A DNA stretch of 28,383 nucleotides from positions 1 through 28,383 of the IMG/VR virus record IMGVR_UViG_3300033146_002649, one strand, 5' to 3'. The stretch is from a virus. The notes beneath the pieces are model-generated. The model saw nothing but the letters and a program-made list of their open reading frames with translations, did not search any database and was not told the DNA's origin. How positions within the stretch are numbered: the stretch's first letter is position 1; each line of letters opens with the position of its first letter. Made by a program: the position numbers and the translations under genes. Shown piece after piece: positions 1 through 28,383 of this stretch.

Positions 1-1
1 T

Positions 2-114
2 TAGTTATCTATTTTTCTCTTTGAGAGTTCTTATAGAAGATTATCTTATTAATGTTTATTTTTATAGTTATCTATTTTTCTCTTTGAGAGTTCTTATAGA
101 AGATTATCTTATTA
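2..114. repeat. Two copies of a 50-bp tandem repeat (left end of control region)
   Basis: Bases 2-51 and 65-114 are identical over 50 bp and are spaced 63 bp apart. The same unit occurs at 28283 and 28339, where the period is 56 bp. Each copy carries the short palindrome CTCTTTGAGAG. The array crosses the ends of the window, so the true copy number may be larger than shown. Likely role (inference): iterons of a replication origin, or binding sites in a control region. It is not a CRISPR array, because the units adjoin with almost no variable spacer. Confidence 0.9.
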
Positions 115-162
115 TAACTACAAATACTAAATAACTAAATATTCAATTCCTGTTGTTGCCAA
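109..162 (+). repeat. Inverted-repeat block A, left copy
   Basis: These 54 bp are a perfect reverse complement of 27649-27702. The left copy directly abuts the last 50-bp repeat. The conserved length is far beyond chance and neither copy is in a gene, so it probably binds a protein or forms part of the origin. Block order differs between the two sides (see the finding on the control region). Confidence 0.92.
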
Positions 163-225: not shown

Positions 226-250
226 AAAGCAAGATTTTTTGCTTTTTTTT
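226..250 (+). terminator. Intrinsic terminator facing the right operon
   Basis: The stem AAAGCAA / TTGCTTT encloses a 6-base loop (GATTTT) and runs straight into a T tract ending at 250. It would stop rightward transcription coming out of the repeat array before it reaches the promoter at about 340-402. A matching terminator in the opposite direction occurs at 28009-28030. Confidence 0.7.
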
Positions 251-325
251 GTTTTTAGTAAGTCTCTTAATTCTATGATAGATAATAACTTAACCCACCT
301 AAAAAAAGGGTATATTCTATAAACA
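244..325 (+). repeat. Inverted-repeat block B, left copy
   Basis: About 82 bp match the reverse complement of 27935-28015 with roughly seven mismatches. The core TAACTTAACCCACC and its flanks are identical in both copies. Both copies begin at the T tract of an intrinsic terminator and lie between the repeat arrays and the promoter block C. Confidence 0.88.
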
Positions 326-338
326 AAAGAAAGCAGAT

Positions 339-415
339 AAAAAAAACTTCAAAAAAAAAGAAAATAAAAAAAATTTTTTCTTGCTAAGAAAGTATTTATA
401 AATGTAAGGTAATTA
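339..415 (+). promoter_or_regulatory. Rightward early promoter region (block C, left copy)
   Basis: Bases 339-402 match the reverse complement of 27532-27595 almost perfectly apart from A/T run lengths. A-tracts resembling an UP element precede a TATTTATAAATG box and the leader TGTAAGGT. The same box and leader recur before the BRO-type gene (24947-24964, minus strand). A small dyad, AAGGT/ACCTT, follows at about 407-421. TTGCTA upstream is too close to the box for a normal sigma-70 -35, so the exact -35 is uncertain. The position just upstream of the first right-arm gene supports a promoter role. Confidence 0.7.
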
Positions 416-444: not shown

Positions 445-978
445 ATGATTGAAAAAAAAGAATGGAAGCTATCAAAAGAAGAGATAAAAGCAAAGGTAGA
501 GGAATGGAGAGAGACAGAGAACCCAGAATTGTTGGAGGAACTATTAGAATTACTAAAACCTATAATAGAGAAAGCAACAGTAATAAGAGCAAGAAAGCAG
601 AATAAATATAATAACGTAGAAACAGATGAAGTTAGAGGAGAAGTAATAATAACACTTTTAGGCTACTTTAGAGACCCAAAGATAAATAACATAGTATCAT
701 TTGCAAAAGACTTTCTATGGCGTTCTAGGGAGACCACAAGAGAGAAAAGAGAGAGAACAGAGACAGAGACAGGAATAGATATAAATAGTGAAGCTAAATA
801 TGATATAGCACTACTAGTAGAAGAGTTAAAAATGAAAACAACAGACACAGTAGAGAGAGAATTTATAGAATTATTGTATAATGGAGAACAAAAAAAGGAT
901 ATAATAGAGAAACTAAATCTAACAAAACTCCAATATGAGGTATATACAATCAAAATAAAGAGGTTGATATATGTCTAA
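445..978 (+). CDS. Small sigma-70-like factor (putative)
   Basis: 177 aa; the start is supported by AAAGGAG seven bases upstream. Residues about 32-105 look like sigma region 2: an acidic helix, then a stretch like the region 2.3-2.4 aromatic/basic segment (SFAKDFLWRSRE, 85-96). Residues 134-174 look like the helix-turn-helix of region 4 (VEREFIELLYNGEQKKDIIEKL). Sigma factors of this size direct RNA polymerase to alternative promoters; here the likely role is switching transcription to phage middle or late genes. It is the first gene of the right early operon and overlaps the next gene, also sigma-like, by 8 bp. No anti-sigma partner was seen. Family placement is by eye and moderately sure. 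Confidence 0.65.
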   Translation: MIEKKEWKLSKEEIKAKVEEWRETENPELLEELLELLKPIIEKATVIRARKQNKYNNVETDEVRGEVIITLLGYFRDPKINNIVSFAKDFLWRSRETTREKRERTETETGIDINSEAKYDIALLVEELKMKTTDTVEREFIELLYNGEQKKDIIEKLNLTKLQYEVYTIKIKRLIYV

Positions 979-4180: not shown

Positions 4181-4196
4181 GAGATTAAACACAGTT

Positions 4197-4958: not shown

Positions 4959-4976
4959 GGGCAAAGGTAAAGTAGA

Positions 4977-5550: not shown

Positions 5551-5570
5551 AAGGGAGAATAGATAATAAA

Positions 5571-7446: not shown

Positions 7447-7459
7447 GGAGATTATCAAA

Positions 7460-7699
7460 ATGGATAAGGTAAAAAAAGAGACAATGAATAAGAAACCTAG
7501 AAAAGCTATTAAGATTGAACAGAAAGTAGAAGAGGTTAAAGGTGTTGAAGTTACATTTACTAAAGACCTTACAATCACATTAAAAGACATTAAAGTAACA
7601 TTTACTAAGGGAGACAAGACAGACAAACTTCCTATCGGCACAATAAGTAGACTAAGTAGATTAGGATATATAAATAACAAAGAGGTAGACAATGACTGA
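7460..7699 (+). CDS. Small hypothetical protein ahead of scaffold
   Basis: 79 aa with a strong AAGGAG nine bases upstream. It is basic at the N-terminus; residues 28-70 look like paired beta strands (VEVTFTKDLTITLKDIKVTFT). No family is recognised. It overlaps the scaffold gene by 8 bp and so is probably co-translated with it. A head-associated or assembly role is inferred from position only. Confidence 0.75.
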   Translation: MDKVKKETMNKKPRKAIKIEQKVEEVKGVEVTFTKDLTITLKDIKVTFTKGDKTDKLPIGTISRLSRLGYINNKEVDND

Positions 7700-8339: not shown

Positions 8340-8365
8340 TTACAAAGAGGAAAAAATAAAATAAT

Positions 8366-9331: not shown

Positions 9332-9374
9332 TATATAAATTAATTATATAAACAGACAATAATAAATAAAAGAT

Positions 9375-9410
9375 GGGGAGATGGGTTTAAAATATCCTCT
9401 CCCCTTTTTT
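9375..9410 (+). terminator. Intrinsic terminator after the capsid gene
   Basis: GGGGAGA (9375-9381) pairs with TCTCCCC (9398-9404), followed by six T residues. It lies inside the late region with no C-tract element after it, so partial read-through must feed the following connector genes. That would keep capsid mRNA in excess. Confidence 0.88.
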
Positions 9411-9445
9411 AGTATATATATAGAAAAGGGATATTATTAAAAAAA

Positions 9446-10198
9446 ATGAAAACATGGAAAGAATATAACTTTGTCTCTCTTAACGATTTAGCTAATTATG
9501 AGACAGAGATAAATAAGACAGCAGGTAAGAAACAAATATATACTTATAGTGGTGATACAATTATATCAGGTACAGCATGGGGAAGAGACCAACATGCAAC
9601 AGTAACCTTTATAGATTTTACCACAAAAGACTATCCTTTTGAAGAAGATAGAAGTTTACAAATTGAGGGTACTTTAAAGGACTATTTCTCAATAGAGGTA
9701 TATGAAACGGAAACAGAAGAGTTATTAGCTAGATACAACTGTTTTGAGGGTGTCAATGATACTATTGCAATAGATATAGTAGGAGACTTTAACTATCCTA
9801 TTCAAACTACAAGAGTATTAAATAGACTTCAGAATGATTGGTCACACATGATAGAGAGAGCTAAACTAGATTTAGGCAGAGAGCTAACAAACTATTATGA
9901 CAATAGAAACTTTGATTTAGACTCTACAATAGATAAGATAGATAATAAGCATTACTTCAAATCAGCTATAATCTTCTTAACACTATCATATATCTTTAGT
10001 GATTTGTCATTAGGTGCTAGTGCAGACTTATATGAATATAAATCAGATAGTTATAAAAAGAAGTTTAATAGAGAGCTTAAAGTAATCATAGAATTAATAG
10101 ACTTTGATACCGATGGAGATGGAACAGTTGACATAGACCATGTAACAGCAACAGATACCATTGGAAGAAGTTATGAGGGTAAAGTTACATTATGGTAA
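9446..10198 (+). CDS. Head-tail connector-like protein with calcium-loop motif
   Basis: 250 aa. The first 120 residues look beta-rich. Residues 123-215 are helical and resemble head-tail adaptor (gp6-like) proteins, which sit under the portal. Near the C-terminus DTDGDGTVD (221-229) matches the DxDxDGxxD calcium-binding loop of EF-hand or dockerin type. The gene lies after the capsid terminator and overlaps the next gene by 7 bp. The connector role comes mainly from gene order, and the N-terminal domain is not recognised. Confidence 0.65.
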   Translation: MKTWKEYNFVSLNDLANYETEINKTAGKKQIYTYSGDTIISGTAWGRDQHATVTFIDFTTKDYPFEEDRSLQIEGTLKDYFSIEVYETETEELLARYNCFEGVNDTIAIDIVGDFNYPIQTTRVLNRLQNDWSHMIERAKLDLGRELTNYYDNRNFDLDSTIDKIDNKHYFKSAIIFLTLSYIFSDLSLGASADLYEYKSDSYKKKFNRELKVIIELIDFDTDGDGTVDIDHVTATDTIGRSYEGKVTLW

Positions 10199-10638
10199 TA
10201 AACACAATAGAGAGACAGATAATAACAGAAGTTAAAGAGATATTAGCAGATGTTGATTATGATTGTATAGGTATATTCCCAGAGATAACAGAGATAGGCA
10301 ATAATTATCCTTGCTATACTATTAGATTTAATGGTGAAACAGAATATACTTATAACTTACATTCTCAAGAGTCTACAATATTATTAGATATTCTTGTTAT
10401 TACTAACGATGTTGTGGATATATTAGTTACACAGACAGGTATAGAAGAGACTATCAGACAAAAGATAACAACTAACCTAAGCCTTAATAACATTATAATG
10501 ACAACTAACCTTACTAACATAGATAGAGGCTCTAGTTTAGAGACTAATGAGAACTTAGCATTTGATAGAGCAGGTTACTTTGAGGGTGTCAATATATCTG
10601 TTATGTCTTTTGAGATTGGTGTAAGAAAGGTTAGATAA
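10192..10638 (+). CDS. Tail terminator/completion-like protein
   Basis: 148 aa. The pattern is a helix (ERQIITEVKEILADVD), a strand giving NYPCYTIRFNGE, then alternating strands ending in a conserved-looking IGVRKVR. This suits the tail terminator/minor capsid fold that caps the tail tube and joins it to the head. Position between the connector and the gpG-like gene agrees with that. It overlaps the previous gene by 7 bp. The call is structural and positional, without a strict sequence motif. Confidence 0.6.
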   Translation: MVINTIERQIITEVKEILADVDYDCIGIFPEITEIGNNYPCYTIRFNGETEYTYNLHSQESTILLDILVITNDVVDILVTQTGIEETIRQKITTNLSLNNIIMTTNLTNIDRGSSLETNENLAFDRAGYFEGVNISVMSFEIGVRKVR

Positions 10639-10640
10639 AT

Positions 10641-11066
10641 ATGATTAAGTTCAAACCACCTAAATTTAAACCTCCTATAATACCAGTAAAGAAAATGCAA
10701 CAAACATTATCTAAGACAGCAGTTCAAGATGTTACTAATAATAGAGTAAGAACAAGCAAAGGACTAGATGTAAACCTAAGACCTTTCCAAAAGTACTCTC
10801 TTAAAACTATTAAATATAAATTATCTAATGGTGTTACATCAGGAACAAAACCTAATTTAATGGACACAGGTACTCTAATGAGAAGTATCATGCACAGAAA
10901 AATCAAAGATGGTTATGAGATATTCTTACAAGCTAGAAATAGAATAGGAGAATATCACCAATATGGGAAAGGTAACAATCCCAAAAGACAGTGGTTTGGA
11001 TTAGATAAGAACTTCATTAAGAAGATTAATACTGCAATGGGAAAGGCTTTTCTAATCAAAAAGTAA
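10641..11066 (+). CDS. Tail completion protein (Mu gpG / virion morphogenesis family)
   Basis: 141 aa. The central block MDTGTLMRSIMHRKI followed by EYHQYGKGNNPKRQWFGLD matches the 'L-x-x-TG-x-L-x-x-S ... YxxxHQxG ... P-x-RxxxGL' pattern of the Mu gpG/phage virion morphogenesis family. Those proteins finish the tail and allow head-tail joining. The gene starts 3 bp after its neighbour. A proline/lysine-rich N-terminus (KFKPPKFKPPIIPVK) precedes the domain. The stop codon runs directly into element E4. Confidence 0.78.
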   Translation: MIKFKPPKFKPPIIPVKKMQQTLSKTAVQDVTNNRVRTSKGLDVNLRPFQKYSLKTIKYKLSNGVTSGTKPNLMDTGTLMRSIMHRKIKDGYEIFLQARNRIGEYHQYGKGNNPKRQWFGLDKNFIKKINTAMGKAFLIKK

Positions 11067-11101
11067 ATCCCCCCTAAGGTATAGAGAGATAAACAAATAA
11101 C
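11066..11101 (+). promoter_or_regulatory. C-tract element E4 before the tail module
   Basis: This is a perfect copy of the element at 2652, and its first base is the last base of the preceding stop codon. It lies 73 bp before the tail-tube gene. Confidence 0.6.
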
Positions 11102-11138
11102 ATAAACAATATTAACAAGAGGAATATAAAAAAATAAT

Positions 11139-12116
11139 ATGGCAAACATTAAAGGTCAATATACAGAAGTAATAATAAAGGCAAACGAAGAATATGCTTT
11201 TAACGATGGCGATTTATCAGCAGACACAAAGACATTTGGTTCAGTAACATGTGAAATGACACCAGAACAAGAAGTAGTAGATAGAAGATTTTCAAGTAAA
11301 TCATACATGGACGCTCCCTGTAATAGTATAGAGGGTAAAAAAGGTGGAACAGTAACACTAAGTGGTAAGCTAACTAAGTCTATCATGCCTGTTATATTAG
11401 GTGGCTATTTCATGAATAACTCACTATTAACAGAATCAACAACACCATTAACACTTAACACAGATACAGTACCAGACTCAGACTTATACAGTTATGATAT
11501 TTTCAAGTCTTATGACAGAGGAACTACTAATGTGTGTTCAGTTGCAAAAGGTTGTGTAGTAGAGTCAGTAGAATTAACACCAGACGACAATGGTCTTTGG
11601 GATTTCACTATTAACTTTAGAGCTATGACAGTAGTATTAGAAGAAGTAGTATCTTATATAACAGACGCTCCAGCAGTAACTTGCGATACAGATTTCATGA
11701 GAACAGTTGGTGTAACAAGCTTTATGTCCGATGGAGACGACTCACCAATAGACACAGTTACAATGAAATTCAGTAATGAGTTTATTGACGACAAGTATCT
11801 ATATGCAGGTAAGAATGAAAAACAAAAGGAAGTATTAGCAACTAGAAGTGGTGAAATGACTGTTGAGGGTCTATATGAATCAACACAAGTTATGCCTCAT
11901 ATAAACCTTAGTGACTTCTTAGAGATTACATTATCAGATGGTATTGGAACAGCTTCAGGTGACTATAAGGTTATATTTACTCTTAATGGTATTCCAACAT
12001 CAGTATCATTACCAGATGTAGAGAAAGGTCTTTATGTGGTTAACTCAACAAGTAAATTACAAAATACTGGTTCAGGTACAAAAGGTTTATCCTTAGTAAC
12101 TCAAACAATATCATAA
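11139..12116 (+). CDS. Major tail (tube) protein
   Basis: 325 aa. It is first in the tail module and just before the tail chaperone and tape measure genes, where the tube protein belongs. The sequence is beta-rich, with glycine/threonine-rich loops and a likely Ig-like or decoration domain toward the C-terminus (about 185-325, with NGIPTSVSLPDVEKGLY). Tube proteins stack as hexamers to form the DNA channel. GAGG lies 16 bases upstream with an AATAAT spacer before ATGGCA, as for the capsid gene, fitting high expression. The call is mainly by position. Confidence 0.72.
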   Translation: MANIKGQYTEVIIKANEEYAFNDGDLSADTKTFGSVTCEMTPEQEVVDRRFSSKSYMDAPCNSIEGKKGGTVTLSGKLTKSIMPVILGGYFMNNSLLTESTTPLTLNTDTVPDSDLYSYDIFKSYDRGTTNVCSVAKGCVVESVELTPDDNGLWDFTINFRAMTVVLEEVVSYITDAPAVTCDTDFMRTVGVTSFMSDGDDSPIDTVTMKFSNEFIDDKYLYAGKNEKQKEVLATRSGEMTVEGLYESTQVMPHINLSDFLEITLSDGIGTASGDYKVIFTLNGIPTSVSLPDVEKGLYVVNSTSKLQNTGSGTKGLSLVTQTIS

Positions 12117-12149
12117 AAATATAAATATAAAACAACGGAGATTAGAAGA

Positions 12150-12551
12150 ATGACTAAAGAACAAAAGAAAGTAAAAGAACAACTCTTAATGAGTGCATTT
12201 ATCGATAATGATAAAGACTATAAAAAAGAAGTTGTCATGGACTTTGGCGATGGAAACACAGAACTAATAGCAACTATTAAACATCTAACTCAAGTAGAGA
12301 CATTAGAGTGCTTTGAACAAGTTGGAGAGGAAGCTCTTAAAACCTCTACTGGTGCTTATCATTATATGGTATTGTTAGCAGAGAAATCTATTGTAAACTG
12401 GATATTTGAGGGAAGAGAGATTACAGCAGAAAATATTGAAATGTTATCTGTTGGATTTTCAGAACTTATTTTCAAGGGTATCAATGATTTAGAGGAAATT
12501 TGGTTGAAGAAATTGACTAAGACTAAAAAAACTAAGAAAACCAAAAAGTAA
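12150..12551 (+). CDS. Tail assembly chaperone-like protein
   Basis: 133 aa with a GGAG site. It is helical after residue 45, acidic overall, and ends with a lysine/threonine repeat (KTKKTKKTKK). Chaperones of this class bind the tape measure while the tube forms. Many are made in two forms by a -1 frameshift; here the A-rich end offers a slippery-looking run, but both shifted frames stop soon and a terminator follows, so no long fusion is made. The call is positional plus size. Confidence 0.6.
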   Translation: MTKEQKKVKEQLLMSAFIDNDKDYKKEVVMDFGDGNTELIATIKHLTQVETLECFEQVGEEALKTSTGAYHYMVLLAEKSIVNWIFEGREITAENIEMLSVGFSELIFKGINDLEEIWLKKLTKTKKTKKTKK

Positions 12552-12574
12552 ACTAGGTAGAATAAAATAGACTT

Positions 12575-12611
12575 AAAGGGGTAGGGTAATTAAAAATCCT
12601 TTCCCCTTTTT
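12575..12611 (+). terminator. Intrinsic terminator after tail tube/chaperone genes
   Basis: AAAGGGG (12575-12581) and nearby GGG pair with CCTTTCCCC (12598-12606), followed by T residues. Like the one at 9375 it is internal to the late region, so it probably lowers expression of the tape measure and hub genes compared with the tube protein. Confidence 0.85.
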
Positions 12612-12630
12612 GTATATACAGGAGAAAAGA

Positions 12631-13311
12631 ATGATTTGGAATTGTGAAGATACTATATTTACTTTAGAGACTTATCCTATCTATTATAATGGAATAGCAA
12701 TAGCTCAATTTAGGTTTCCAACAGAAAAGCAGATGAAAGGCTACATCTATAAAACAAGCACACAAACACTTTTAGGAGAAGAGGTGACTTACTTTACCTC
12801 TAACATAAGAAACAGTCTTAAACTAATGGTTTTAAGCCTTGATAGTTGGATTTTCCCTCAATCTATAACAGAGGATAACATAGAGAACTTGAATATAGAC
12901 ATCTTAACTAAATTGTTAGGTGATATTATGAAGTATATAAATGAGATTAATAACATTGAAGCTTACAAGAACAACTTAAAGAAAATGATAGAGTTATTAG
13001 AAAATGGTGAGAACCTTAAATTAGATGAGAAGTTTTTCAATTCAAGTTTAATGGTTGAGGCTTTTTGTTCTAATTGTAAGTTGAATAAGACAGATAAATG
13101 TGACAATAAGAAACAGAAGATATTAAAAGTATCTCAAGACATAATAAAATATGCTTACTTAAAAGTAAACCAAAAGACTGTTGAATATCCTAGAAAGGGT
13201 ACTTGGGAAGACCAAACAGTATGGTTTAATCTCTTATATGATTATGCTTGTAGTTATATTCAAGAATGTAGGAATAATAAAATGAAAAGAGAACAAGACA
13301 AGCACAAATAA
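12631..13311 (+). CDS. Hypothetical protein between chaperone and tape measure
   Basis: 226 aa from the ATG at 12631, chosen for AGGAG eight bases upstream; an in-frame TTG at 12610 lies inside the terminator and is unlikely. The N-terminal part looks beta-rich, then helical (about 95-145). A CSNCKLNKTDKC cluster (about 147-158) could bind metal or form a disulfide. Position matches the second tail chaperone of many siphophages, but it is made from its own start. No family is recognised. Confidence 0.7.
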   Translation: MIWNCEDTIFTLETYPIYYNGIAIAQFRFPTEKQMKGYIYKTSTQTLLGEEVTYFTSNIRNSLKLMVLSLDSWIFPQSITEDNIENLNIDILTKLLGDIMKYINEINNIEAYKNNLKKMIELLENGENLKLDEKFFNSSLMVEAFCSNCKLNKTDKCDNKKQKILKVSQDIIKYAYLKVNQKTVEYPRKGTWEDQTVWFNLLYDYACSYIQECRNNKMKREQDKHK

Positions 13312-13333
13312 AAAGAATTATTAAGAGGAATAT

Positions 13334-15907
13334 ATGGCAACAAATATACAAAAACTAAATTATAGAGTTACCACAGATGGTGTAAAGAAGTCTCAAAAAG
13401 AATTTGATGGTATGTCAGAGAGCGTAAAAGGTGTAGGTACTAGTGCAGTAGCAATGTTAGGAACTTTCGTCTCTGTTGGTGTAGTATTAAAAGGATTAAC
13501 AAATAGTTTCAATCTCTTCATTGAGCAAAGAAATAGTGTAATCTTAATGACTTCTGCAATATCAGAAATGAATGCAGAGGCAACATTATCAGCTAAAGGA
13601 CTTCAAGATTTAGCTAGTGGATTTCAAAAGGTTTCTAATATTGGTGATGAAAACATCTTAAAGAACATTTTTACTCCTATGATTAATTCAGGTGTTAAAG
13701 CTCAAGACACTATCAAACAATTAACACAAGTAATATTAGATAGTAATGCTAACAATAGAGGTAGTATAGAAAGTATTTCAGAGCAAATCAATGGTGTAAT
13801 AGATGGCAGTGTAACATCTTATACTAGATTAGCTAAGGTATTTCAAATATCAGTAGAAGAATTAAAAGGTGGTTTAGATGGACTATCTACTTCAACTCAA
13901 AGAGCAGGAGCATTAGCTACTATATTAGGTGGCAAGTATGAGGGAATGGCTAAAAAGACTATCAATCCAGTTCAACAAATGCAGAATGCAATAGGAGATG
14001 TAGGAGAAGAAGTTGGTAAAGCTTTTGCACCTATGATTACTGCAATGGCTAATAGTGTTTCTGGTTTCCTAAGTATCAAAGAAAATGTAGATAGTCTTGT
14101 TACTTCGATACAGATTTTATCAGGTTCTTTAATTTTGATAGGTACTAAGATGGTTACATTAAAGGCTATTGCTATCGGTAAGTATTTTGCAACAGCAGGA
14201 ATAAGTGTAGCAAAATATACCACATTCTTAGCAAAGGGTGGTTATGAAACTTTAGTCTTAGCAAAGGGATTAAAGAAAAATGTAGAGATGTTAAGAAAAT
14301 CGGCAATATCATGGAGAGAGGAGAGAGACGCTTGTAGGTCAGGTTTTGCAACAATGGAAACTAGAAAGATGTATGAAGATGGTCAAATAAGAGTTAGAGA
14401 AAAATATATGTCTCAAAACAAAAAATACATTGGCAACATGAAAGAAATTCGCACAGAAAATCAAGCATTTGCAAAATCCATAAAGCTAAATATTGGTTCA
14501 ATATTAGGTTGGATAACAGTGGCAACAACAGTAATAACAGTAGGTTACCAATTAGGCAAGTCTTTTGGTTGGTGGGGAGAAAAGGCAGAAGATGTAACTA
14601 AAAAGATGAAAGATTTAACCACTTCTGTTGGAGAATCAGCAGACGCATTATCAAACCTTAATAGAGTTGAGATTTTTGGTGAGGGAGAATTAGATAAGTT
14701 TTCAAAGATAGTTGAAGTATTTGAAGATTTGGGAATAAAAGTAAACAAAACAAAACTATTGGGAGACTCTAAGGGTGTGTACATAAAGGAATTAAAAGAG
14801 ATTGCAAGAGTTAAAATCGAGCATGAGGCTTTACGTTCACTTTATTTAGAGAGAGAAGAGGCACAACAAACATATAATAAACTATTAGATAGAGCTGAAA
14901 AGCTTAAAGCAAAGGGTTTAGGGAATACTGATGTAGGATTAATTAGATATAGAAATGTAGGAGATGAATTAACAGAAGCTAGTAAGAACCTAAATATCCT
15001 AAATGAGAGATATAAGGTACTTTACACATCTATAAATAAGGTAAGAAAGGCTAAAAAGGAAGATGAAGATAAAGATGAAATAGAGCCTAATGCAAGCCTA
15101 AGACAGGATAGAGAACAGCCAGATGGTTATCATAACTTTATACAATCCCAAATAGATGAGGCTAAAAGATTTGTAGCTTATCAAGATGGTGAACTAACAC
15201 ATAGAAAAGAATATTACAATGCTATTTCAGGGATATATAACGACTACCTTAATACACTATCCAAACATGGTGAAGAATATATGACAGCTAGAACTCTTCA
15301 GATAGATGGGGAGATGGACAAACTAAGAGAGTTTGGTGTTTCAGAGTCTCAAATACTAATAGCAAGGAAATTAGCATTAGATGAGTTGACAAATGGTGCT
15401 ACCGAAAGTAGTAATAAAATGATTGAGAGTTCAGGTGGGTTCAAACTATGGAGCGGTGTTGCTACAAACTCTATCAATGCTATTAGTAGTGAAATGATGG
15501 GTTGGATTAAGATAACAGCAAGGTCTACTAATGAGGGAGCTAAACTATGGTATGCTTTTGCTCAATCTATGATACAACAAATAGGGAAGATAATAACACA
15601 ACTATTAATAATGATTGCAGTTCAGAAGATTGCAGGAGCTTTTGGTATGAGTATGTTTGGAGGAACTGTTGGAAGTTTACTAACTGGATTTTTCAAAGAC
15701 GCACCAACAGGCGGAGGCACTTCAACATCTGCAAACCCTATTGACATCTCTTCAGGTAGTACATTATCAACACCAACAGGTGGAAGTGATATAATAGGAA
15801 AGCTAGAAGATGTTGTTAATGCTATATATCAAACTCAAACAAGAATAGGTGATATAGAGATGGCTAAAGTAGTTGAGAGCGGTAACTTACAAAGGGCGGT
15901 AATCTAA
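13334..15907 (+). CDS. Tail tape measure protein
   Basis: 857 aa, the longest gene of the window. The N-terminus is a long helix with a hydrophobic patch (about 35-60) and the repeated helical pattern of tape measures. Hydrophobic segments occur at about 387-416 and 741-790, where they could interact with the membrane during DNA ejection. The C-terminal region with FAQSMIQQIGKIITQLL resembles the ends of lambda-type tape measures. By the usual rule of about 0.15 nm per residue the tail would be roughly 125-130 nm, an estimate only. A GAGG site lies 7 bases before the ATG. Confidence 0.92.
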   Translation: MATNIQKLNYRVTTDGVKKSQKEFDGMSESVKGVGTSAVAMLGTFVSVGVVLKGLTNSFNLFIEQRNSVILMTSAISEMNAEATLSAKGLQDLASGFQKVSNIGDENILKNIFTPMINSGVKAQDTIKQLTQVILDSNANNRGSIESISEQINGVIDGSVTSYTRLAKVFQISVEELKGGLDGLSTSTQRAGALATILGGKYEGMAKKTINPVQQMQNAIGDVGEEVGKAFAPMITAMANSVSGFLSIKENVDSLVTSIQILSGSLILIGTKMVTLKAIAIGKYFATAGISVAKYTTFLAKGGYETLVLAKGLKKNVEMLRKSAISWREERDACRSGFATMETRKMYEDGQIRVREKYMSQNKKYIGNMKEIRTENQAFAKSIKLNIGSILGWITVATTVITVGYQLGKSFGWWGEKAEDVTKKMKDLTTSVGESADALSNLNRVEIFGEGELDKFSKIVEVFEDLGIKVNKTKLLGDSKGVYIKELKEIARVKIEHEALRSLYLEREEAQQTYNKLLDRAEKLKAKGLGNTDVGLIRYRNVGDELTEASKNLNILNERYKVLYTSINKVRKAKKEDEDKDEIEPNASLRQDREQPDGYHNFIQSQIDEAKRFVAYQDGELTHRKEYYNAISGIYNDYLNTLSKHGEEYMTARTLQIDGEMDKLREFGVSESQILIARKLALDELTNGATESSNKMIESSGGFKLWSGVATNSINAISSEMMGWIKITARSTNEGAKLWYAFAQSMIQQIGKIITQLLIMIAVQKIAGAFGMSMFGGTVGSLLTGFFKDAPTGGGTSTSANPIDISSGSTLSTPTGGSDIIGKLEDVVNAIYQTQTRIGDIEMAKVVESGNLQRAVI

Positions 15908-15909
15908 TT

Positions 15910-17655
15910 ATGAGACTAAAATTATATGAGTTGGTATATGGAGACACACTAAATTACACAGATTATCTTATTGATGAAGTTGAAATAGCAGATGTAAAGC
16001 TACCAACTAAGAAACTAACATCTGTAAACTACTTTAATATAGAGGGGGAGCAATTATCTGTTAGTTTCTTAATGACAGACAGCTTAAATATCCCCTTATT
16101 ACTAAATAGAAACAGCTTTACTCATTACTTCTCAACAGATTTATTAAGACTTTATGGTGTTGTTGTAGACGATGGTAACAATAGTTTATTTGAGGGAATG
16201 GTAAAGACAGCCTTTGATTATGATGAGGGAACAATGCTAGTTAGTAAGCTTACTTTATTAGATGGTGTTTACATACTTAATAAATATTGGTTAGGTGATA
16301 AGGATATACCTATGAAAGACCCTGTATATATTGATAACTTCCCAGATGATGGAGATAATTATGGTATGGAGGTTTCAAATGTTTGGGATTTACCTATCAA
16401 TACCTTATTTGATTATATTAAATTTGGAACAATCTATATTAAAGGACTTAGAAGTAAGCAGATAAATACTAAGACTGCTTTACAAATGATAGTTAGAGAA
16501 AAGTTATTCAAACAATACACACCTTTCAGACTTAATTATGATAGTTTCGACTATGGAGAAAAGACAGTCAACTTTAATGATGTTGAAGTAGCTACATTAG
16601 AAGATTTATTTATTGACTTTGACTTAGAAAATGATAATCAAGTAGTATTAGGTGAGCTAGGTTCAGAGGATTATTTCTCTAAATATAATATAAGTGTTTT
16701 CTTACAAAAGGATTATTACAGGAATAACCCAACACCAGAAGAGGGAGATTTCATTGGTGAGGGTTGTTTCTTATGGTTCATAACTTATAAATCTGTATTT
16801 GAAAGAGAGTATTATCACTTAGTAGAGGACTTAACAATAAGTAAATTCTCAATTAGATATAGTGATGGTAGCTTTACAAAAGTACAAGAGGACTCAATAA
16901 GCTCTGATAAGGTAATGACAGCTATGGAAGAGTACATAGGAACAGGTCAAGAGTTCTTATATGCTAACTTTCTTAGAGGTGAAATATATGAATATGATAC
17001 TATCTTTAGAGATAATGTTAGTTATACCCCTGAAAGCAGAGAGCTAAGTTATTACTACAACAACGCTTTAGAGGGATTTCCTACAACTATAAACGTGCCA
17101 TCTTATACAGGTGGGTTATATAGTGATGTAGCAACATTAACAGTAGACTTGACAGCTGATAGTAAACCAGTATTATATAGTTCAGTTAATAACTTTGTCT
17201 ATGACACCTCTGATATAACCTTATCAAAAAGAAGAGATAGCGATGTCCTAAAGAGTTTATGTATATTAGACAACATAACACCAATAACAGATGGACACTT
17301 GATTAAATTCATTAATAAGATACCTTATGAGGTCTCTACACCATCGGCAGTAATCAATTTATACGACCATGAATGTAGAACAAAATATGTTTCAAGCACA
17401 ATTAATAGGTTTTCAACTAAAGATGTTGAGCCAATGTTTAATGGTTACTTCTTATCTATCTTCTATCAAGAGTTGTATAGTTACCTTTATGACAATTATA
17501 ATGTAAAGAAAACATTTGAACTGTTTAGCACCAACTCTAAGATAAGCACATTAGCTCTAGGTGATACTATTCAACATAATGGAAACACTTATTTTGTTAT
17601 AGAGTATTCAACAACAAACAATATAACAACAATAACAACAATGGGAGAGAGATAA
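15910..17655 (+). CDS. Tail hub / baseplate protein (putative)
   Basis: 581 aa, placed directly after the tape measure with a 2-bp gap. The N-terminal 100 residues look like a beta-rich tail-hub domain (pattern YTDYLIDEVEIADVKLPTKK). The C-terminus ends in a small beta segment (LGDTIQHNGNTYFVIEY, about 555-571) often seen in tail-hub proteins. Aromatic and acidic residues are abundant. It is probably the distal tail/hub protein at the tip of the tube. No enzymatic motif such as a lysozyme or peptidase domain was seen. Confidence 0.62.
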   Translation: MRLKLYELVYGDTLNYTDYLIDEVEIADVKLPTKKLTSVNYFNIEGEQLSVSFLMTDSLNIPLLLNRNSFTHYFSTDLLRLYGVVVDDGNNSLFEGMVKTAFDYDEGTMLVSKLTLLDGVYILNKYWLGDKDIPMKDPVYIDNFPDDGDNYGMEVSNVWDLPINTLFDYIKFGTIYIKGLRSKQINTKTALQMIVREKLFKQYTPFRLNYDSFDYGEKTVNFNDVEVATLEDLFIDFDLENDNQVVLGELGSEDYFSKYNISVFLQKDYYRNNPTPEEGDFIGEGCFLWFITYKSVFEREYYHLVEDLTISKFSIRYSDGSFTKVQEDSISSDKVMTAMEEYIGTGQEFLYANFLRGEIYEYDTIFRDNVSYTPESRELSYYYNNALEGFPTTINVPSYTGGLYSDVATLTVDLTADSKPVLYSSVNNFVYDTSDITLSKRRDSDVLKSLCILDNITPITDGHLIKFINKIPYEVSTPSAVINLYDHECRTKYVSSTINRFSTKDVEPMFNGYFLSIFYQELYSYLYDNYNVKKTFELFSTNSKISTLALGDTIQHNGNTYFVIEYSTTNNITTITTMGER

Positions 17656-21893: not shown

Positions 21894-21930
21894 AAAGGGA
21901 GAACAATTATTTTGCTCTCCCTTTTTTTTA
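21894..21930 (+). terminator. Terminator between convergent operons
   Basis: AAAGGGAG (21894-21901) pairs with CTCCCTTT (21917-21924) and continues into a T-run. It lies in the gap between the rightward late region and the leftward early operon. The A-run at its start also gives a weaker U-rich tail for the opposite strand, so it may act both ways. Confidence 0.85.
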
Positions 21931-21947: not shown

Positions 21948-22631
21948 CTAATACAAGTCACCACTTGCTATTCTTTGTCTTCTCTTTATTCTGTTTTCTA
22001 TCTCTATTTTTTTCTCTTCTGTCACTCTCTGCTCCTCCTCCAATCTCTCTTTTCTTCTACTAACAGCTCTTAATCTTTTCATTTCTTTTTCTTTTCTTCT
22101 TTGTTCATCATTATGTTTTTTGTTATTTTCTTCAAGCAAAAGCTTATCTTCTCTTATTTTTCTAATATCTCTCCTATGTTTTTTACTTTCAAGAATGAAA
22201 TTTCTATTCTCTTCAGCCTCAATGTCAACATGTTTTCTCCAGTTGGGTAATTGCCTACGAAGAGTGCAGTCCTCTATCTCTCCATACTCCACCATTTTCT
22301 TGTACACCTTTTGTTTTCTATATTTTTCTATCAACTTCTCAAAGACACTTTTTAGCTTTTCCCCCTCCCTTTTAGAAATTGTAAGAAATTTTGATAAACC
22401 ATGAGAAGTAAAAGAATAAGAAAGAAGAGGGTTTCTATAATTCCTACATAATCCCCAAACATCGCTCAAACCTTTTAAGTCATAATCCAATGTTGGTTTT
22501 GGCAGTTTAGGGGAAACCTCTTTATCACACCTCTTGCATACAATATTATTAGTGTTTACAAAAGTCAAAAAATCCCCCTCATATATTATCTCTCTTCCAC
22601 ACATTTCACAAAAAACTATTTCCTTACTCAC
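21948..22631 (-). CDS. Zinc-ribbon protein with basic coiled coil
   Basis: 227 aa. Four cysteines at 8, 11, 32 and 35 (CEMC and CKRC) form a clear zinc-ribbon-like site. Residues about 130-220 are highly charged and form a long basic coiled coil rich in arginine, lysine and glutamate. The middle (60-110) is helical and aromatic-rich. Such a layout suits a nucleic-acid or polymerase-binding protein. It is last in the left operon and overlaps the preceding gene by 4 bp. No family is recognised and no catalytic motif is seen. Confidence 0.72.
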   Translation of the reverse strand: MSKEIVFCEMCGREIIYEGDFLTFVNTNNIVCKRCDKEVSPKLPKPTLDYDLKGLSDVWGLCRNYRNPLLSYSFTSHGLSKFLTISKREGEKLKSVFEKLIEKYRKQKVYKKMVEYGEIEDCTLRRQLPNWRKHVDIEAEENRNFILESKKHRRDIRKIREDKLLLEENNKKHNDEQRRKEKEMKRLRAVSRRKERLEEEQRVTEEKKIEIENRIKRRQRIASGDLY

Positions 22632-23197
22632 TTTATTATCCCCATTTCTCTACCAATCTCAATATCCTTTCTACTTATGTAAGTATCTTCTATTGTTTTT
22701 ATGTTGGTATCATCTACTGTACTATACTTCTTAGCCATCATGCTAATAATCTCTCTAGGTGTATTATAACCATATTCTAGTAATGTCATAGCTTCTTCAT
22801 TACCCCAACCAGTAGCAAAATACTTATCTTTAATCTCATAGATAGATGTCCTCATTGCCTCAATCTCTTGAAATGTAAGTTGGTAAGCTTTCTCTTTTTG
22901 ACAGATAATGATTTGTGAGTCTCCTAAAGCTATACATTTGCTATTCAATAACTTAGAAAACTTAGCTCCAAAATCAACTAGAAATTCTAATGATAGATTA
23001 ATCGGAAATTCCGACTTTCTTAAAAGGTTTATAAACATCTTATTGATTGTTACATCTCCTGTTGTACCTACTAAGACATTTTCATCGACCTTATAAGCTT
23101 TAACCTCGTCTCTTGATATAATGTTATCTGTGAGTCCTATACTATCTGTTGTGATTACATTCTTGTTGTTCAATCTACTTAATATTACTAGTGACAT
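22628..23197 (-). CDS. Proteasome/HslV-like (Ntn-hydrolase-fold) protein
   Basis: 189 aa with AGGGGAGGA upstream. The N-terminal ILSRLNNKNVITTDSIG, GTTGD (44-48), and the ATGWGNEEAMTLLEYGYN block (128-145) resemble 20S proteasome beta or HslV subunits, which have a Ser/Thr near the start, a central GxxGD-like turn and GSGxxxAxxxLxxG. True proteases expose an N-terminal threonine; here TTDS is at 16-19 with no visible processing site, so activity is uncertain. It may be an assembly or regulatory homologue. It is in the early arm, not in the structural cluster. Confidence 0.6.
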   Translation of the reverse strand: MSLVILSRLNNKNVITTDSIGLTDNIISRDEVKAYKVDENVLVGTTGDVTINKMFINLLRKSEFPINLSLEFLVDFGAKFSKLLNSKCIALGDSQIIICQKEKAYQLTFQEIEAMRTSIYEIKDKYFATGWGNEEAMTLLEYGYNTPREIISMMAKKYSTVDDTNIKTIEDTYISRKDIEIGREMGIIK

Positions 23198-23519: not shown

Positions 23520-23939
23520 TTACATCTTTTCTAGTTCTTTTTCCATTGCAACCTTTTGTAGCTCCAACCTTTCTATTGCTTGTTTTTTTATAAAAGTGTG
23601 AAGTGTTGTGACTATATACTTCTCTCTTTGAAAAGACATTTCAACAATCTTAGCAAACACCTTTAGTAGTTCATCTTTTACAAATATCCTTTCAACAACA
23701 TTTAATTCCACCTCACACCAATATAAAACCTCTGTTAGTGTTGGCTTGTTCTTATATGCTTTATGAAAATCTTTTATAAAATCTATAATCAACTCATGAC
23801 TTTTTGTCGCAAAGTTATCACCATTAATCTTTTGTAAACCTAATAATTCCTTTGTAGTTTCATAATCACTTAAAAATACTGCTACTATCTCTGTTTGATA
23901 CTCTCTATTTATGAACATTTTTTTGTTATTCTTTTCCAT
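23520..23939 (-). CDS. Free-standing DnaB N-terminal-domain-like protein
   Basis: 139 aa from the ATG at 23939, chosen because AAAGGAG lies 8 bases upstream; the upstream ATGs overlap the preceding gene. Residues about 10-70 resemble the helical N-terminal domain of replicative DnaB helicases (a short helix, then LSDYETTKELLG, then ATKSHELIIDFIKDFHKAYKNKPTLTEV by pattern). The final stretch FIKKQAIERLELQKVAM is like the DnaB linker region. There is no ATPase half and no Walker motif. It could bind and load host DnaB, or block it. Similarity is by eye. Confidence 0.58.
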   Translation of the reverse strand: MEKNNKKMFINREYQTEIVAVFLSDYETTKELLGLQKINGDNFATKSHELIIDFIKDFHKAYKNKPTLTEVLYWCEVELNVVERIFVKDELLKVFAKIVEMSFQREKYIVTTLHTFIKKQAIERLELQKVAMEKELEKM

Positions 23940-23958
23940 CTTATTCTCCTTTGTTTTG

Positions 23959-24903
23959 TTAAAATTTTCTAAATTCATCATTTATGAATGCGGTTATTAT
24001 TTGGTTTTGGTCGGATTTTGTGAAGTCGTCAAAGTCAGCGTCAATGTTAGGTAATCTGTTGAAATACTTAATAGTCTCATTTCTAAAGAAAACATCTATA
24101 CTGCTCTTTGTTACATGCCCTTGTTTGTTCTTGTTGATTACTTCATCTTCCATGAGAATATCATAGATGTATGTCTTACCCTCTTTTGTCCATTTCATAC
24201 TAGAAGTATCAATACCGTTAAAAGTACTATCTGTTATTTGAGCATACTCTGTTGGAATACCACTATATAATACCCAAGTGCTACCACTCTTATAACAAAC
24301 ACCTTTAATTTTAAGATATTGGTTTAGTTTCCTAGCAGAGCTAATACCGAACTGTTTCGCTACTGTTGTTGTGTTAGCTAATGTAGAAGAGCCATAAAAA
24401 GTTTTTAGCTTATCTTCTAGTTTCTCTACTTTCTCTGTCTCAATTTGTAGGTTTGTTGTTAGTTGGATTGTCTCATTTTGTAACATCTCAATCATTTGCA
24501 CACTATCTGCTAAGACTTTCTCTACCATTTGAGCAGGTGTAAGAGTTGGTGTTATTGTTTTACCTCTTCTTAGGTCTCTCAAAATATGTTTAACTTCTTT
24601 TTTAAACTTCTTAGCTATTGGTTTTCTTGATTGCATTAATATTTCATACAACCCATCTTCAGTTACAAACCACATATCTCTGTTTTGACCTGATGCAAGA
24701 ATTGTTTGCATCAGCTTTTCTTCCTCGTCAATAGTTTTTAACATTTCACTTGCTCTACTATGCTCAATCCATTCCGCAATATCTTTAGCTAAAAATTTAG
24801 GTTCATCTAAGTCACCATAGATTTTTAGTTCTTTTTCTAATACTATTACGCTCTTCGCTACTTCTACTCTCTCAACTTTTACAATTTCGTTGATTTTTCT
24901 CAT
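23959..24903 (-). CDS. BRO-N / KilA-C-type regulatory protein (antirepressor family)
   Basis: 314 aa. Residues 17-113 form a BRO-N domain: VIVLEKELKIYGD, FLAKDIAEWIE, the LASGQNRDMWFVTEDGLY segment and the helix KKFKKEVKHILRDLRRG. Residues 125-168 form a coiled coil, and 175-240 resemble a KilA-C helix-turn-helix (TVAKQFGISSARKLNQYL). BRO/KilA proteins are DNA-binding regulators, often antirepressors, in phages. The gene has its own promoter at 24947-24990 that shares motifs with the C blocks. No repressor target was found in the window. Domain calls are quite sure. Confidence 0.82.
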   Translation of the reverse strand: MRKINEIVKVERVEVAKSVIVLEKELKIYGDLDEPKFLAKDIAEWIEHSRASEMLKTIDEEEKLMQTILASGQNRDMWFVTEDGLYEILMQSRKPIAKKFKKEVKHILRDLRRGKTITPTLTPAQMVEKVLADSVQMIEMLQNETIQLTTNLQIETEKVEKLEDKLKTFYGSSTLANTTTVAKQFGISSARKLNQYLKIKGVCYKSGSTWVLYSGIPTEYAQITDSTFNGIDTSSMKWTKEGKTYIYDILMEDEVINKNKQGHVTKSSIDVFFRNETIKYFNRLPNIDADFDDFTKSDQNQIITAFINDEFRKF

Positions 24904-24946: not shown

Positions 24947-24995
24947 CCTTACAATTATAAATACTAAACCTTTCAAAACTTTTTTTTATTTTTTT
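24947..24995 (-). promoter_or_regulatory. Promoter of the BRO-type gene
   Basis: On the minus strand, A-tracts and GTTTTGAAAGG lead to TATTTATAATTGTAAGGT (24947-24964 on the plus strand), matching the promoter before 445 (TATTTATAAATGTAAGGT). A -10 TATAAT is visible within it. It lies 44 bp before the ATG. Confidence 0.7.
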
Positions 24996-25127
24996 TGTTT
25001 TTTCAAAGTTTTTTTTAAATGTTGTAATTTTCTTGTATTTTCCTCTATTTTGCATGAGTTAGAGGACAAATCCTCAACTTCTATTTTAAATAGGGGAATT
25101 GCGATAGGCAAACTTAGATATTTTCTC

Positions 25128-25271: not shown

Positions 25272-26531
25272 TTATCTTTTAAGCTTTTTAATTCTCTTTT
25301 GATAACCATCTAATGTTATAGGTTCTTCATTCAACCACATTTGAAACAAAGTACGCATTCTAATACTAGGGATATAGACATTTATCTCCTCCCCATTTCT
25401 AATTGCACTTCTCCAAATCCATTGTATCATTTCAGATAATGCCCACTGAAGTTTATGGTCTGGGTGGATTGGACAGTCTTTATCTTGATAGAAAGTTTCT
25501 ATAAAGGGGTTTAAATATCTATTAGAAAGGTATATTACATTTGTTTTATGCCCATAATCATTTGTTCCTTTCATATTCATACTTAGAAAAGACTTTTGAT
25601 ACTTCCCCAAAACATCTATTTTCATATTCTTTAAGCAAGTTACTAATGTATTTTCCACTTTCCCTTTATATTTGTTTCTTATAACATTCGTAACATTTCT
25701 TTTTAACTGTGCTTTCTCTTTTTTACCCAATCTCTTTGTCCAATTTGTAGCAAAAGCAGTACTACTATACCCTACATTGTTTATTTTGCCCTCTAATATT
25801 GTTATTTTCTTTTTAATATCGCTTATTTTTACTTCTCTTTTATCAAAAAGCTCTAATTTCTCCCAAGTGTAACCTAAAAATCTAAAATATTGAGCCATCA
25901 TAGAACAATCAAACATATAAGTAAGTATTATAATATCCTCAAAACAGTCAATAGTCTCACGACTTAATAACCATGTAAAGAAAACACTCTTTACTACATC
26001 TTTATCTTTCATTATATTGGTATAATAAACTGTACCCTCTTTTTTCATGAGCTTAACAAAGTTCTTATCAACTAATTCTGTCTCGTCTCCTCTCTTCTCT
26101 ATCCATTCTGCAACACCATTTTCACAAAACTTAACCTTTTCTAATACTGTTAGTAGTCTAAAGTCTCCTTTCTTTAAAGATTTTGTCTCTATTACTTCTG
26201 AAACTTCATCAAGTATTAATGTAAACCCACCTTTAACTATTAGCTCTCTTACCTCTTCATCAAAAAATTCAAATGCTTTATGAGTTGTTGCAATAGAAAC
26301 ACCACTATCTAATTTCTTTAATAATGTTCTGTGACTTAACACACCATCTATATAAGGACTTTCCACATTAGGACATTTAGATACTATTCTCTTCACTTCT
26401 GATATAGTTGGGGTAATATATATAAAACTTCTATAAGAGTGTCTATTCATGTACCCTATGGCTCTATTTGTTTTTCCTGTTCCCATTACTTCATCTACAA
26501 CTTTAATTCTTGTTTGTTCTTTTCTATTCAT
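25272..26531 (-). CDS. SF2-like helicase (putative replication helicase)
   Basis: 419 aa with a GGGAG site before the ATG. Walker A EVMGTGKT (14-21), a TTH element after a strand (82-84), and motif II LILDEVSE (105-112) mark an ATPase of the helicase class. Near the end QWIWRSAIRNGEEINVYIP (370-388) resembles the arginine-finger motif VI. The middle is rich in basic helices. With no polymerase or primase nearby, it likely opens the origin or unwinds DNA for host enzymes. It lies behind the promoter/operator at 26555-26600. Fine family unknown. Confidence 0.75.
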   Translation of the reverse strand: MNRKEQTRIKVVDEVMGTGKTNRAIGYMNRHSYRSFIYITPTISEVKRIVSKCPNVESPYIDGVLSHRTLLKKLDSGVSIATTHKAFEFFDEEVRELIVKGGFTLILDEVSEVIETKSLKKGDFRLLTVLEKVKFCENGVAEWIEKRGDETELVDKNFVKLMKKEGTVYYTNIMKDKDVVKSVFFTWLLSRETIDCFEDIIILTYMFDCSMMAQYFRFLGYTWEKLELFDKREVKISDIKKKITILEGKINNVGYSSTAFATNWTKRLGKKEKAQLKRNVTNVIRNKYKGKVENTLVTCLKNMKIDVLGKYQKSFLSMNMKGTNDYGHKTNVIYLSNRYLNPFIETFYQDKDCPIHPDHKLQWALSEMIQWIWRSAIRNGEEINVYIPSIRMRTLFQMWLNEEPITLDGYQKRIKKLKR

Positions 26532-26554: not shown

Positions 26555-26605
26555 TATACTAACTATAAATAGTATAAAAGCAAACTTTATTTTCTTTTTT
26601 TTTCA
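26555..26605 (-). promoter_or_regulatory. Promoter with palindromic operator before helicase
   Basis: On the minus strand A-tracts and GTTTGC precede TATTTATAGT. The box lies inside a palindrome: TATACTA (26555-26561 on the plus strand) with TAGTATA (26570-26576), and ACTATTTATAGT within it. An operator overlapping a promoter box suggests autoregulation. The A-tract plus TATTTATA layout is shared with blocks C and the BRO promoter. Confidence 0.65.
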
Positions 26606-26745
26606 TTTTCTCTTGTTCTATCATTCTCACTCTTTATCAATAATCTTACTAAACACTCTAATTCAAACACTTTAGACCTCATTTCTTTAGTTTCCTTATT
26701 TACTCTGTTGTCTATATACCTATCAATAGTTTTCTTGAAAAACAT
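26587..26745 (-). CDS. Small 52-aa coiled-coil protein
   Basis: The frame starts with ATG at 26745 and ends TAA at 26587-26589. AAAGGGAG lies 6 bases upstream, overlapping the end of the preceding gene, which stops 3 bases before. The product starts MFFKKTIDRYIDNRVNKE and is a charged helix with a lysine-rich end. It is shorter than usual gene-finder limits but has a strong ribosome site and coupled position. No function is recognised. The downstream promoter overlaps its final codons. Confidence 0.68.
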   Translation of the reverse strand: MFFKKTIDRYIDNRVNKETKEMRSKVFELECLVRLLIKSENDRTRENEKKRK

Positions 26746-26747
26746 AA

Positions 26748-27482
26748 TTAGCTCCCTTTCCTCATATCTATTCTTTTTCTAAACATACTATAACCTATCC
26801 CATTTCTACCAAAACGCTTATATGACGCTTTCTCTGTTGAAATGGCTTTTGATACATCTTCCTTTATATCCTCTTCTGTACCTATCTCATTCTTAGCTAC
26901 AAGTGTGTTCTCTATACTATCTATATCATTTGTTTCTGTTATCATTGGTTCTTCCTCAAGACTATCTAGGAAATCTTGAAATTCACTATCTATTTCTCCT
27001 TGTTCCTCTTCTATTTCCTTTTGTTCAGCAAAAATGATAAGTTTTAACTCTATCCCCTCTATATCTATAAAGATGTTTATTAGTTGTCTTAAATCCTTTT
27101 GTTCAAACATAACAACCTCTAAATCTTCTCCAACTACAAACCCTCTAATAAATTTTATATCCTCTTCTTCTCTAACTCTCTCTATTGCTTGATTATATTC
27201 TCTTACTTCATCTATAACGTTTTCTAAGAAGTTCTCTAATGTTATGTAATTACCCTCTAAAAGCTTAAAATCATCTACTGTGCCTATTATCTCTTTTGGT
27301 GTGGTATGTAATTCATCTTCAACCTCTATAAGCTCCTCTATGGTTTCATTGTTTAGCTCTCTCTTAATTCTTCTAAACTTATCAACACCTTTCTCATTTT
27401 TTGTTGTCTTTGACTTATGTCCATTGTCTATCAAAGAACTGAAATGTCTTGCTAATGTACTCTTGCTTTCTCTTCTGCTCAT
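26748..27482 (-). CDS. Acidic early protein of unknown function (first gene of left arm)
   Basis: 244 aa from the ATG at 27482, chosen because GGAG lies upstream; a TTG at 27527 would add 15 residues but has no ribosome site. The first 50 residues are basic (SRRESKSTLARHFSS), the middle (about 60-210) strongly acidic with glutamate runs, and the C-terminus basic (RFGRNGIGYSMFRKRIDMRKG). It is the first gene after the inverted promoter block, so an origin-binding or host take-over role is possible, but no family is recognised. Confidence 0.75.
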   Translation of the reverse strand: MSRRESKSTLARHFSSLIDNGHKSKTTKNEKGVDKFRRIKRELNNETIEELIEVEDELHTTPKEIIGTVDDFKLLEGNYITLENFLENVIDEVREYNQAIERVREEEDIKFIRGFVVGEDLEVVMFEQKDLRQLINIFIDIEGIELKLIIFAEQKEIEEEQGEIDSEFQDFLDSLEEEPMITETNDIDSIENTLVAKNEIGTEEDIKEDVSKAISTEKASYKRFGRNGIGYSMFRKRIDMRKGS

Positions 27483-27510
27483 CTTTTCTCCATTCATAAT
27501 TTTGTTATTT

Positions 27511-27605
27511 GATTGGTGTATATCCAATCTGTTTATAAATACTTTCTTAGCAAGAAAAAAATTTTTTTTATTTTCTTTTTTTTGAAGTTTTTTTTGAATA
27601 TGTGG
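27511..27605 (-). promoter_or_regulatory. Leftward early promoter region (block C, right copy)
   Basis: Bases 27532-27595 are the inverted counterpart of 339-402, with A-tracts, TTGCTAAG and TATTTATAAA. In the leader a perfect dyad, GATTGG (27511-27516) and CCAATC (27524-27529), overlaps the start of transcription and may be an operator. It faces the left operon as the other copy faces the right operon. Confidence 0.7.
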
Positions 27606-27648
27606 TTTTAAGGCTTATCTTAGGCTTTTTTTGGACTTTCCTCAAATG

Positions 27649-27702
27649 TTGGCAACAACAGGAATTGAATATTTAGTTATTTAGTATTTGTAGTTATAAT
27701 AA
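27649..27702 (-). repeat. Inverted-repeat block A, right copy
   Basis: 54 bp identical to the reverse complement of 109-162. Here it lies between the promoter block C and the 58-bp repeats, not beside the 56-bp array as on the left. The order A, B is therefore swapped between the two sides. Confidence 0.92.
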
Positions 27703-27716
27703 AATAGATTATATTT

Positions 27717-27884
27717 ATTGTTATATTCTCTTATATTTCATATAATATCTTATATAATGTTAGTAGTTTTTTATATTGTTATATTCTCTTATATTTCATA
27801 TAATATCTTATATAATGTTAGTAGTTTTTTATATTGTTATATTCTCTTATATTTCATATAATATCTTATATAATGTTAGTAGCT
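27717..27884 (+). repeat. Three tandem 58-bp AT-rich repeats (possible DNA-unwinding element)
   Basis: Units start at 27717, 27775 and 27833; the first two are identical (58 bp), and the third matches for 50 bp. They are almost only A and T, with CATATAATATCTTATATAAT inside. Such easily melted direct repeats are typical of origins. No copy occurs in the left half. Confidence 0.9.
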
Positions 27885-27934
27885 TTTAGGGTTTAATCTT
27901 TTCTTTATATCTTTATATTTTTTTATTAATCTTC

Positions 27935-28015
27935 TGTTTATAGGATATTCCTTTTTTTAGGTGGGTTAAGTTATTATCTATCATAGAGTTATAAGACTTA
28001 CTAAAAACAAAAAAA
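27935..28015 (-). repeat. Inverted-repeat block B, right copy
   Basis: About 81 bp match the reverse complement of 244-325 with roughly seven mismatches, and it is located next to a minus-strand terminator just as its partner is next to a plus-strand one. Confidence 0.88.
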
Positions 28016-28030
28016 CCACAAAATCGTGGT
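28009..28030 (-). terminator. Intrinsic terminator facing the left operon
   Basis: Minus-strand ACCAC/GTGGT with loop GATTTT, followed by seven U residues. It mirrors the plus-strand terminator at 226-250 and would stop transcripts coming out of the repeat array toward the left operon. Confidence 0.68.
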
Positions 28031-28035
28031 ACTTT

Positions 28036-28260
28036 TATGATAATACTCTATAAAACACTCCCAAAAGAGAGAGAAATAGATAACCAAAACATACTAAAAA
28101 TAATCTTCTATAAGAACAACCAAAGGTGAGAGATAGACAACTAATAATTTAAGAATATAACTAATTACTATAACCACCAAAGGGGAGAGGTAAATAAAGC
28201 TATATAAGACAATCAAAACATAAAGACTATAAGTTATATAACAAACAAAAGATAATCAAT
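28036..28260 (-). repeat. Degenerate 60-bp repeat array, opposite to the 56-bp repeats
   Basis: CTATAA cores occur at 28048, 28108, 28168 and 28227, about 60 bp apart. The second copy is the clearest: AATCTTCTATAAGAAC is the exact complement of part of the 56-bp repeat. The CCAAAGG and AGAGATAGACAAC portions are also inverted versions. Thus an older, diverged array faces the recent perfect array across about 28260. Confidence 0.72.
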
Positions 28261-28270
28261 CCTACATAGC

Positions 28271-28383
28271 TTATTAATGTCTTAGTTATCTATTTTTCTC
28301 TTTGAGAGTTCTTATAGAAGATTATCTTATTAATGTCTTAGTTATCTATTTTTCTCTTTGAGAGTTCTTATAGAAGATTATCT
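28271..28383 (+). repeat. 56-bp tandem repeats at right end
   Basis: Full copy 28283-28332 and partial copy 28339-28383, period 56 bp, preceded by a half-unit at 28271. The sequence stops inside a repeat unit; joined to base 1 it continues into the two copies at 2-114. Confidence 0.9.
28338..28383. other. 46-bp end overlap with bases 1-46
   Basis: The last 46 bases are identical to the first 46. This is the usual sign of a circular or circularly permuted assembly. As it lies wholly in a tandem repeat, it can also come from repeat collapse, so exact size and copy number are uncertain. Confidence 0.85.

Follow-up and report, generated by a model that had tools for sequence, protein, structure and literature searches.

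Organization of the Locus

The window analyzed here is the whole 28,383-bp stretch of the IMG/VR virus record IMGVR_UViG_3300033146_002649, a single genome. Its genes lie in a rightward block (445–21863) and a leftward block (27482–21948), which converge at a terminator-like hairpin at 21894–21924. The first 46 bases of the window are exactly the same as the last 46 in direct orientation, as detected by self-BLAST of the flanks, and joining the ends on this overlap, which itself sits within a tandem repeat, produces a 28,337-bp circle and a seamless 56-bp tandem array. Very probably, both contig ends are joined into a single stretch of ~1.25 kb. The joined flanks form a single divergent intergenic region of about 1.25–1.3 kb (1,299 bp as a gap), from which both gene blocks diverge. 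This is the sole divergent intergenic gap of the genome and by far the largest gap, the second largest being 368 bp, and its GC content is 22%, compared with 31.5% genome-wide, and 13–15% in parts, a composition expected of the AT-rich unwinding region of an iteron-containing origin. The genes and elements around the join are as follows.

1..114, + strand: 56-bp direct array continued across the join; units 1–55 and 65–114 with a short spacer between
109..162, + strand: block A, left copy; 54/54 identical to its partner
244..325, + strand: block B, left copy; weak outward terminator-like hairpin ahead (~226–245)
339..402, + strand: left copy of block C, with A-tracts, TTGCTA, and TATTTATAAA; 42 bp from its end to the ATG at 445
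445..978, + strand: rightward operon, first gene; 177-aa product assigned to no family
24955..25016, − strand: third copy of C, located upstream of the antirepressor gene; 77%, E 5.6e-8; score reached by 0/200 shuffles
25272..26531, − strand: leftward-operon gene for an SF2 helicase-like protein (YonV/PHROG 2467 family); E 2.3e-62
26561..26614, − strand: C-like element ahead of the helicase gene, a tentative fourth copy with its match near 26586–26614; has an A-tract, TTTGC, and TATTTATA; score reached by 2/200 shuffles
26748..27482, − strand: first gene of the leftward operon; the GGAG-preceded ATG at 27482 is probably the start, in preference to the TTG at 27527
27532..27595, − strand: right copy of block C; 49 bp from its end to the probable ATG at 27482
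27649..27702, − strand: right copy of block A; displaced to a position farther out than block B
27716..27887, + strand: tandem array of three 58-bp units, right flank only; Tandem Repeats Finder (TRF), 99% matches
27935..28015, − strand: block B, right copy; outward intrinsic-terminator-like hairpin ahead (28030–28015, then T7)
28031..28144, − strand: 56-bp unit in two inverted, diverged copies (28031–28087 and 28089–28144); scores 29.5–30.5, shuffle maximum 23
28282..28383, + strand: 56-bp iteron-like units, direct; one full unit and a 46-bp end overlapping position 1; TRF period 56, 100% matches

Inverted Block Pairs

The first-pass annotation had described A, B, and C as inverted pairs spanning both window ends, and self-BLAST of one flank against the other recovers all three. 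The A copies are identical over 54 bp (54/54, 100%), the B copies share 92.7% identity over 82 columns including an exact 38-bp core (272–309/27950–27987), and the 64-bp C copies are 97% identical with homopolymer lengths as the only differences. Exact inverted matches of 54, 38, 29, 28, and 22 bp are found in the joined region, while the longest one in 300 dinucleotide-preserving shuffles of the same region is 11.8 bp on average and 17 bp at most. The orientation of both C copies, outward toward the divergent operons, and the swapped block order were likewise borne out: from the center outward, the left side reads repeats-A-B-C and the right side reads repeats-B-(58 bp × 3)-A-C.

An outward hairpin followed by a T-run lies on the inner side of both B copies. 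It is strong at right B (−10.3 kcal/mol, z −3.85) and weak at left B (about −5.8 to −5.9 kcal/mol, z −1.0), and is kept at both copies although the stem sequences differ. The folding signal of B itself is modest (z −1.1 to −1.6), and cmscan detected no Rfam match for B in the right flank, or in the whole window at gathering thresholds; B was therefore rejected as an RNA element. Folding also reveals an imperfect dyad in A. Probably, A and B are binding sites for phage or host regulators, and the dyads and other features of B, A, and the arrays would fit protein-binding sites.

Repeat Arrays and Geometry of the Joined Region

The 56-bp unit is present in at least three direct copies and at least two diverged inverted copies. 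Its direct copies and the three 58-bp units are the putative initiator-binding repeats in a comparison with iterons. The inverted units differ by ~20%, one 58-nt match being 81% complementary, and further inverted remnants sought at 28149–28255 have scores inside the shuffle null. The unit holds an imperfect dyad whose folding is not beyond that of shuffles. By eye, the 58-bp units seem to share an origin with the 56-bp units, but this idea was discarded, as the score of 20.5 falls inside the shuffle range (maximum 23).

Because the last ~100 bp of the window share their orientation with the first 115 bp, and inverted copies lie at 28031–28144, the symmetry axis is placed in the right flank at ~28.26 kb; as the two sides are unequal in length, midpoints of the individual pairs spread over 28.07–28.30 kb. 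Around the axis, C, B, and the 56-bp units follow a collinear order and nest, and A alone is displaced, together with the 58-bp array. Thus, of the “rearranged palindrome” proposed in the first-pass annotation, the order swap stands, and the structure is better described as a palindrome of C, B, and repeats in collinear order, from which a single module is displaced. The relative orientation of every block is preserved between the two sides, A being the only one moved. One inversion cannot swap the order while keeping all orientations, but duplication of an A-B unit in tandem with subsequent loss can, and we infer that the swap arose in the latter way.

The pairing of A with A′ crosses that of B with B′, and therefore no single hairpin accommodates all pairs. 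In the minimum-energy single-strand fold of the region, 63/64 positions of C, 78/81 of B, and 88/114 of the repeats are paired, and no position of A is paired with A′. The hairpin replication intermediate suggested earlier is weakened by the crossing and by this predicted fold. The other suggestion, co-evolution of the two halves by recombination, would be compatible with A copies that are perfectly identical next to flanks that have diverged. Recombination may even be active between the two 54-bp copies of A, inverting the central repeat segment or homogenizing the two sides by gene conversion, though we consider this rather unlikely. If the A pair does recombine, the control regions of the two operons would evolve in concert, or the orientation of the origin and repeat array would switch.

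Block C as a Probable Promoter Module

C consists of A-tracts followed by TTGCTA-N10-TATAAA. When left C was compared with 32 upstream regions, right C and the third and tentative fourth copies were the only ones standing out clearly, and weak matches confined to the A-tracts were seen at 12150 and 17659; the null for these copies was 200 shuffles of the region tested. The match of the third copy runs on through GTAAGGT, as in left C, and all copies, the tentative fourth included, end ~40–55 bp ahead of start codons, at distances of 42–54 bp. Given that the antirepressor gene and, tentatively, the helicase gene also have a copy upstream, the preferred interpretation of C is a promoter module shared among genes, not half of a palindrome. 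It contains no canonical −35/−10 pair at normal spacing, its own spacing being unlike that of a standard sigma-70 pair, and sigma-70-like matches in the stretches containing the region are not commoner than in shuffles. Just past each flanking C, in the presumed 5′ leader, there is a hairpin with a 7-nt loop (404–424 and 27510–27529; z −1.3 and −2.1), the stem sequences of the two being unrelated.

Genes of the Flanking Operons

The helicase-like protein matches the YonV/PHROG 2467 profile over residues 2–407 (E 2.3e-62) and is 35% identical to YonV of Bacillus phage SPBc2. Its predicted structure (pLDDT 88.8) matches an XPD/DinG-type core (E 2e-7), so that a full-length profile match and an SF2 core both place it in the family. 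It is a reasonable candidate for an origin-acting protein, and no recognizable Rep or DnaA-like protein was detected among the genes scanned. In the literature found, the YonV family has no tested function; one paper names yonV along with SPbeta, on a toxin-antitoxin pair.

The leftward block also encodes a BRO/KilAC antirepressor. In addition, a 153-aa protein encoded at 23520–23981 (−) weakly matches part of the DnaB-like helicase PHROG 19 (E 7e-4) and is too short for an ATPase domain; possibly, it is a DnaB N-domain mimic or a loader. An HslV/proteasome-like peptidase (PHROG 1040, E 1.6e-8) is encoded at 22628–23197 (−) in this small phage. In the rightward block, products of 445–978 and 971–1723 (+) look sigma-factor-like by eye, being helical with an HTH-like C-terminus. 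This sigma-factor reading was dropped in view of the lack of a family or structure match and a low-confidence model.

Relatives and Comparable Systems

No relative of the phage was found in viral_contigs with the helicase, the capsid, the terminase, the 581-aa tail-region protein, or the 250-aa product of the second gene as queries. A family-wide helicase search returned only relatives of ~30–39%, sharing no other gene of the window except for remote antirepressor matches. By tblastn, the portal, the capsid, and the 581-aa protein (encoded within 2717–17655, +) matched none of 50,697 annotated phages, which places the phage in a lineage that has been poorly sampled. A pattern search with the core of B gave no match, and that with the core of A gave one, inside an unrelated coding gene, which was put down to chance. 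The surroundings of other YonV-family genes (166 loci, 3.0 Mb) were searched for exact inverted pairs of at least 22 bp within 2.5 kb; only two loci have even one such pair and none has more than one, compared with three block pairs here; a long inverted match in another of these loci (L161) was masked N and was discarded. The region looks like an unusually elaborate version of a known arrangement in a phage for which no close relatives were found.

Iteron-type origins with an origin-acting helicase are a general class, to which the AT-rich gap, the repeat units in direct and inverse orientations, and the helicase gene in a flanking operon correspond. In contrast to those origins, the units of 56–58 bp are longer than typical iterons, and the helicase is a candidate origin-acting protein. 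As for transcription, lambda nutL and nutR are a pair of control elements, one copy per divergent early operon. In HK022, putL and putR are related elements, one for each early operon, and a put site is ~70 nt (PMC9378689). The present phage likewise has two related copies of similar length, one per divergent operon. It differs in having three DNA blocks and repeat arrays, and in the position of B: a put/nut-type site is a transcribed two-stem RNA element downstream of the early promoter, whereas B is located upstream of C, the presumed promoter and the only supported candidate. Another likeness is found in the start-associated sequences (SAS) and ESAS of cluster K mycobacteriophages, repeated composite elements just upstream of several genes, whose function is not established; SAS go with starts of many genes, and ESAS add imperfect 17-bp inverted repeats (PMC3203893). 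Both cases are repeated composite control elements upstream of phage genes with inverted repeats included, while C is ~64 bp long with A-tracts and has three to four copies, two of which form a mirrored pair with A and B. By analogy, the logic of the region resembles that of lambdoid put/nut pairs and its repeated composite elements resemble SAS/ESAS, as likenesses rather than as membership in either.

Proposed Control Region and Probable Origin

Our favored reading, to which we give a probability of roughly 0.6, is that the joined region combines mirrored promoters and operators of the divergent operons with a replication origin, the whole being built on an iteron-like array. The transcription-control part alone is firmer than this combination. 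Of the divergent promoter and bidirectional origin suggested in the first-pass annotation, the shared control region is well supported by the only divergent gap, the outward C copies, and the recurrence of C, and the origin is plausible, in view of iteron-like arrays in both orientations, 22% GC, the largest gap of the genome, and the SF2 helicase gene in the leftward operon. The GC skew also changes at the region, but the switch in gene direction there accounts for this just as well.

It is possible, though on balance doubtful, that the mirrored modules serve solely as promoters and operators of the two divergent operons, with the origin elsewhere or in a single block. The occurrence of C away from the center, the terminator-like hairpins flanking the center, and the HK022 precedent of putL and putR, related elements serving both early operons (PMC9378689), suit such a role; the long arrays in two orientations and the AT-rich 1.25 kb exceed the needs of promoters, and there is no second comparable gap in the genome. 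Contig ends lying within repeats, with inverted copies near both of them, might instead be the real termini of a linear genome, the composite being either a telomere-like hairpin end or an inverted terminal repeat with imperfect copies. This is improbable: the ends of an inverted terminal repeat are inverted complements, while the outermost ~100 bp of both ends here are direct repeats with the exact 46-bp overlap, the symmetry axis is internal (~28.26 kb), and the A pair crosses the B pair. Contig ends are also known to carry artifactual inverted duplications, and a foldback chimera formed in assembly or amplification could have joined inverted copies at the contig end. Such copies would be identical and collinear, but here B differs by ~7% and the inverted 56-bp units by ~20%, the order differs between the sides, and different genes flank each side, so that we give this explanation hardly any credence.

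If the joined region is both control region and origin, each operon would be started by its own copy of the promoter module C, and A and B on each side would be regulator-binding sites through which a common set of signals would act on both operons. The central 56-bp array, containing dyads and present in both orientations, would most likely be the initiator-binding part of the origin, probably joined in this by the AT-rich 58-bp array, and the outward terminators at the B blocks would insulate the origin from transcription. Such an organization would represent a compact way for a phage to couple the start of replication with two opposing transcription programs via mirrored modules, in which the order of modules is free and their orientation is kept. 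Furthermore, with a helicase gene and a candidate origin close together in a 28-kb phage, the locus may offer a way to test the function of the widespread and uncharacterized YonV family.
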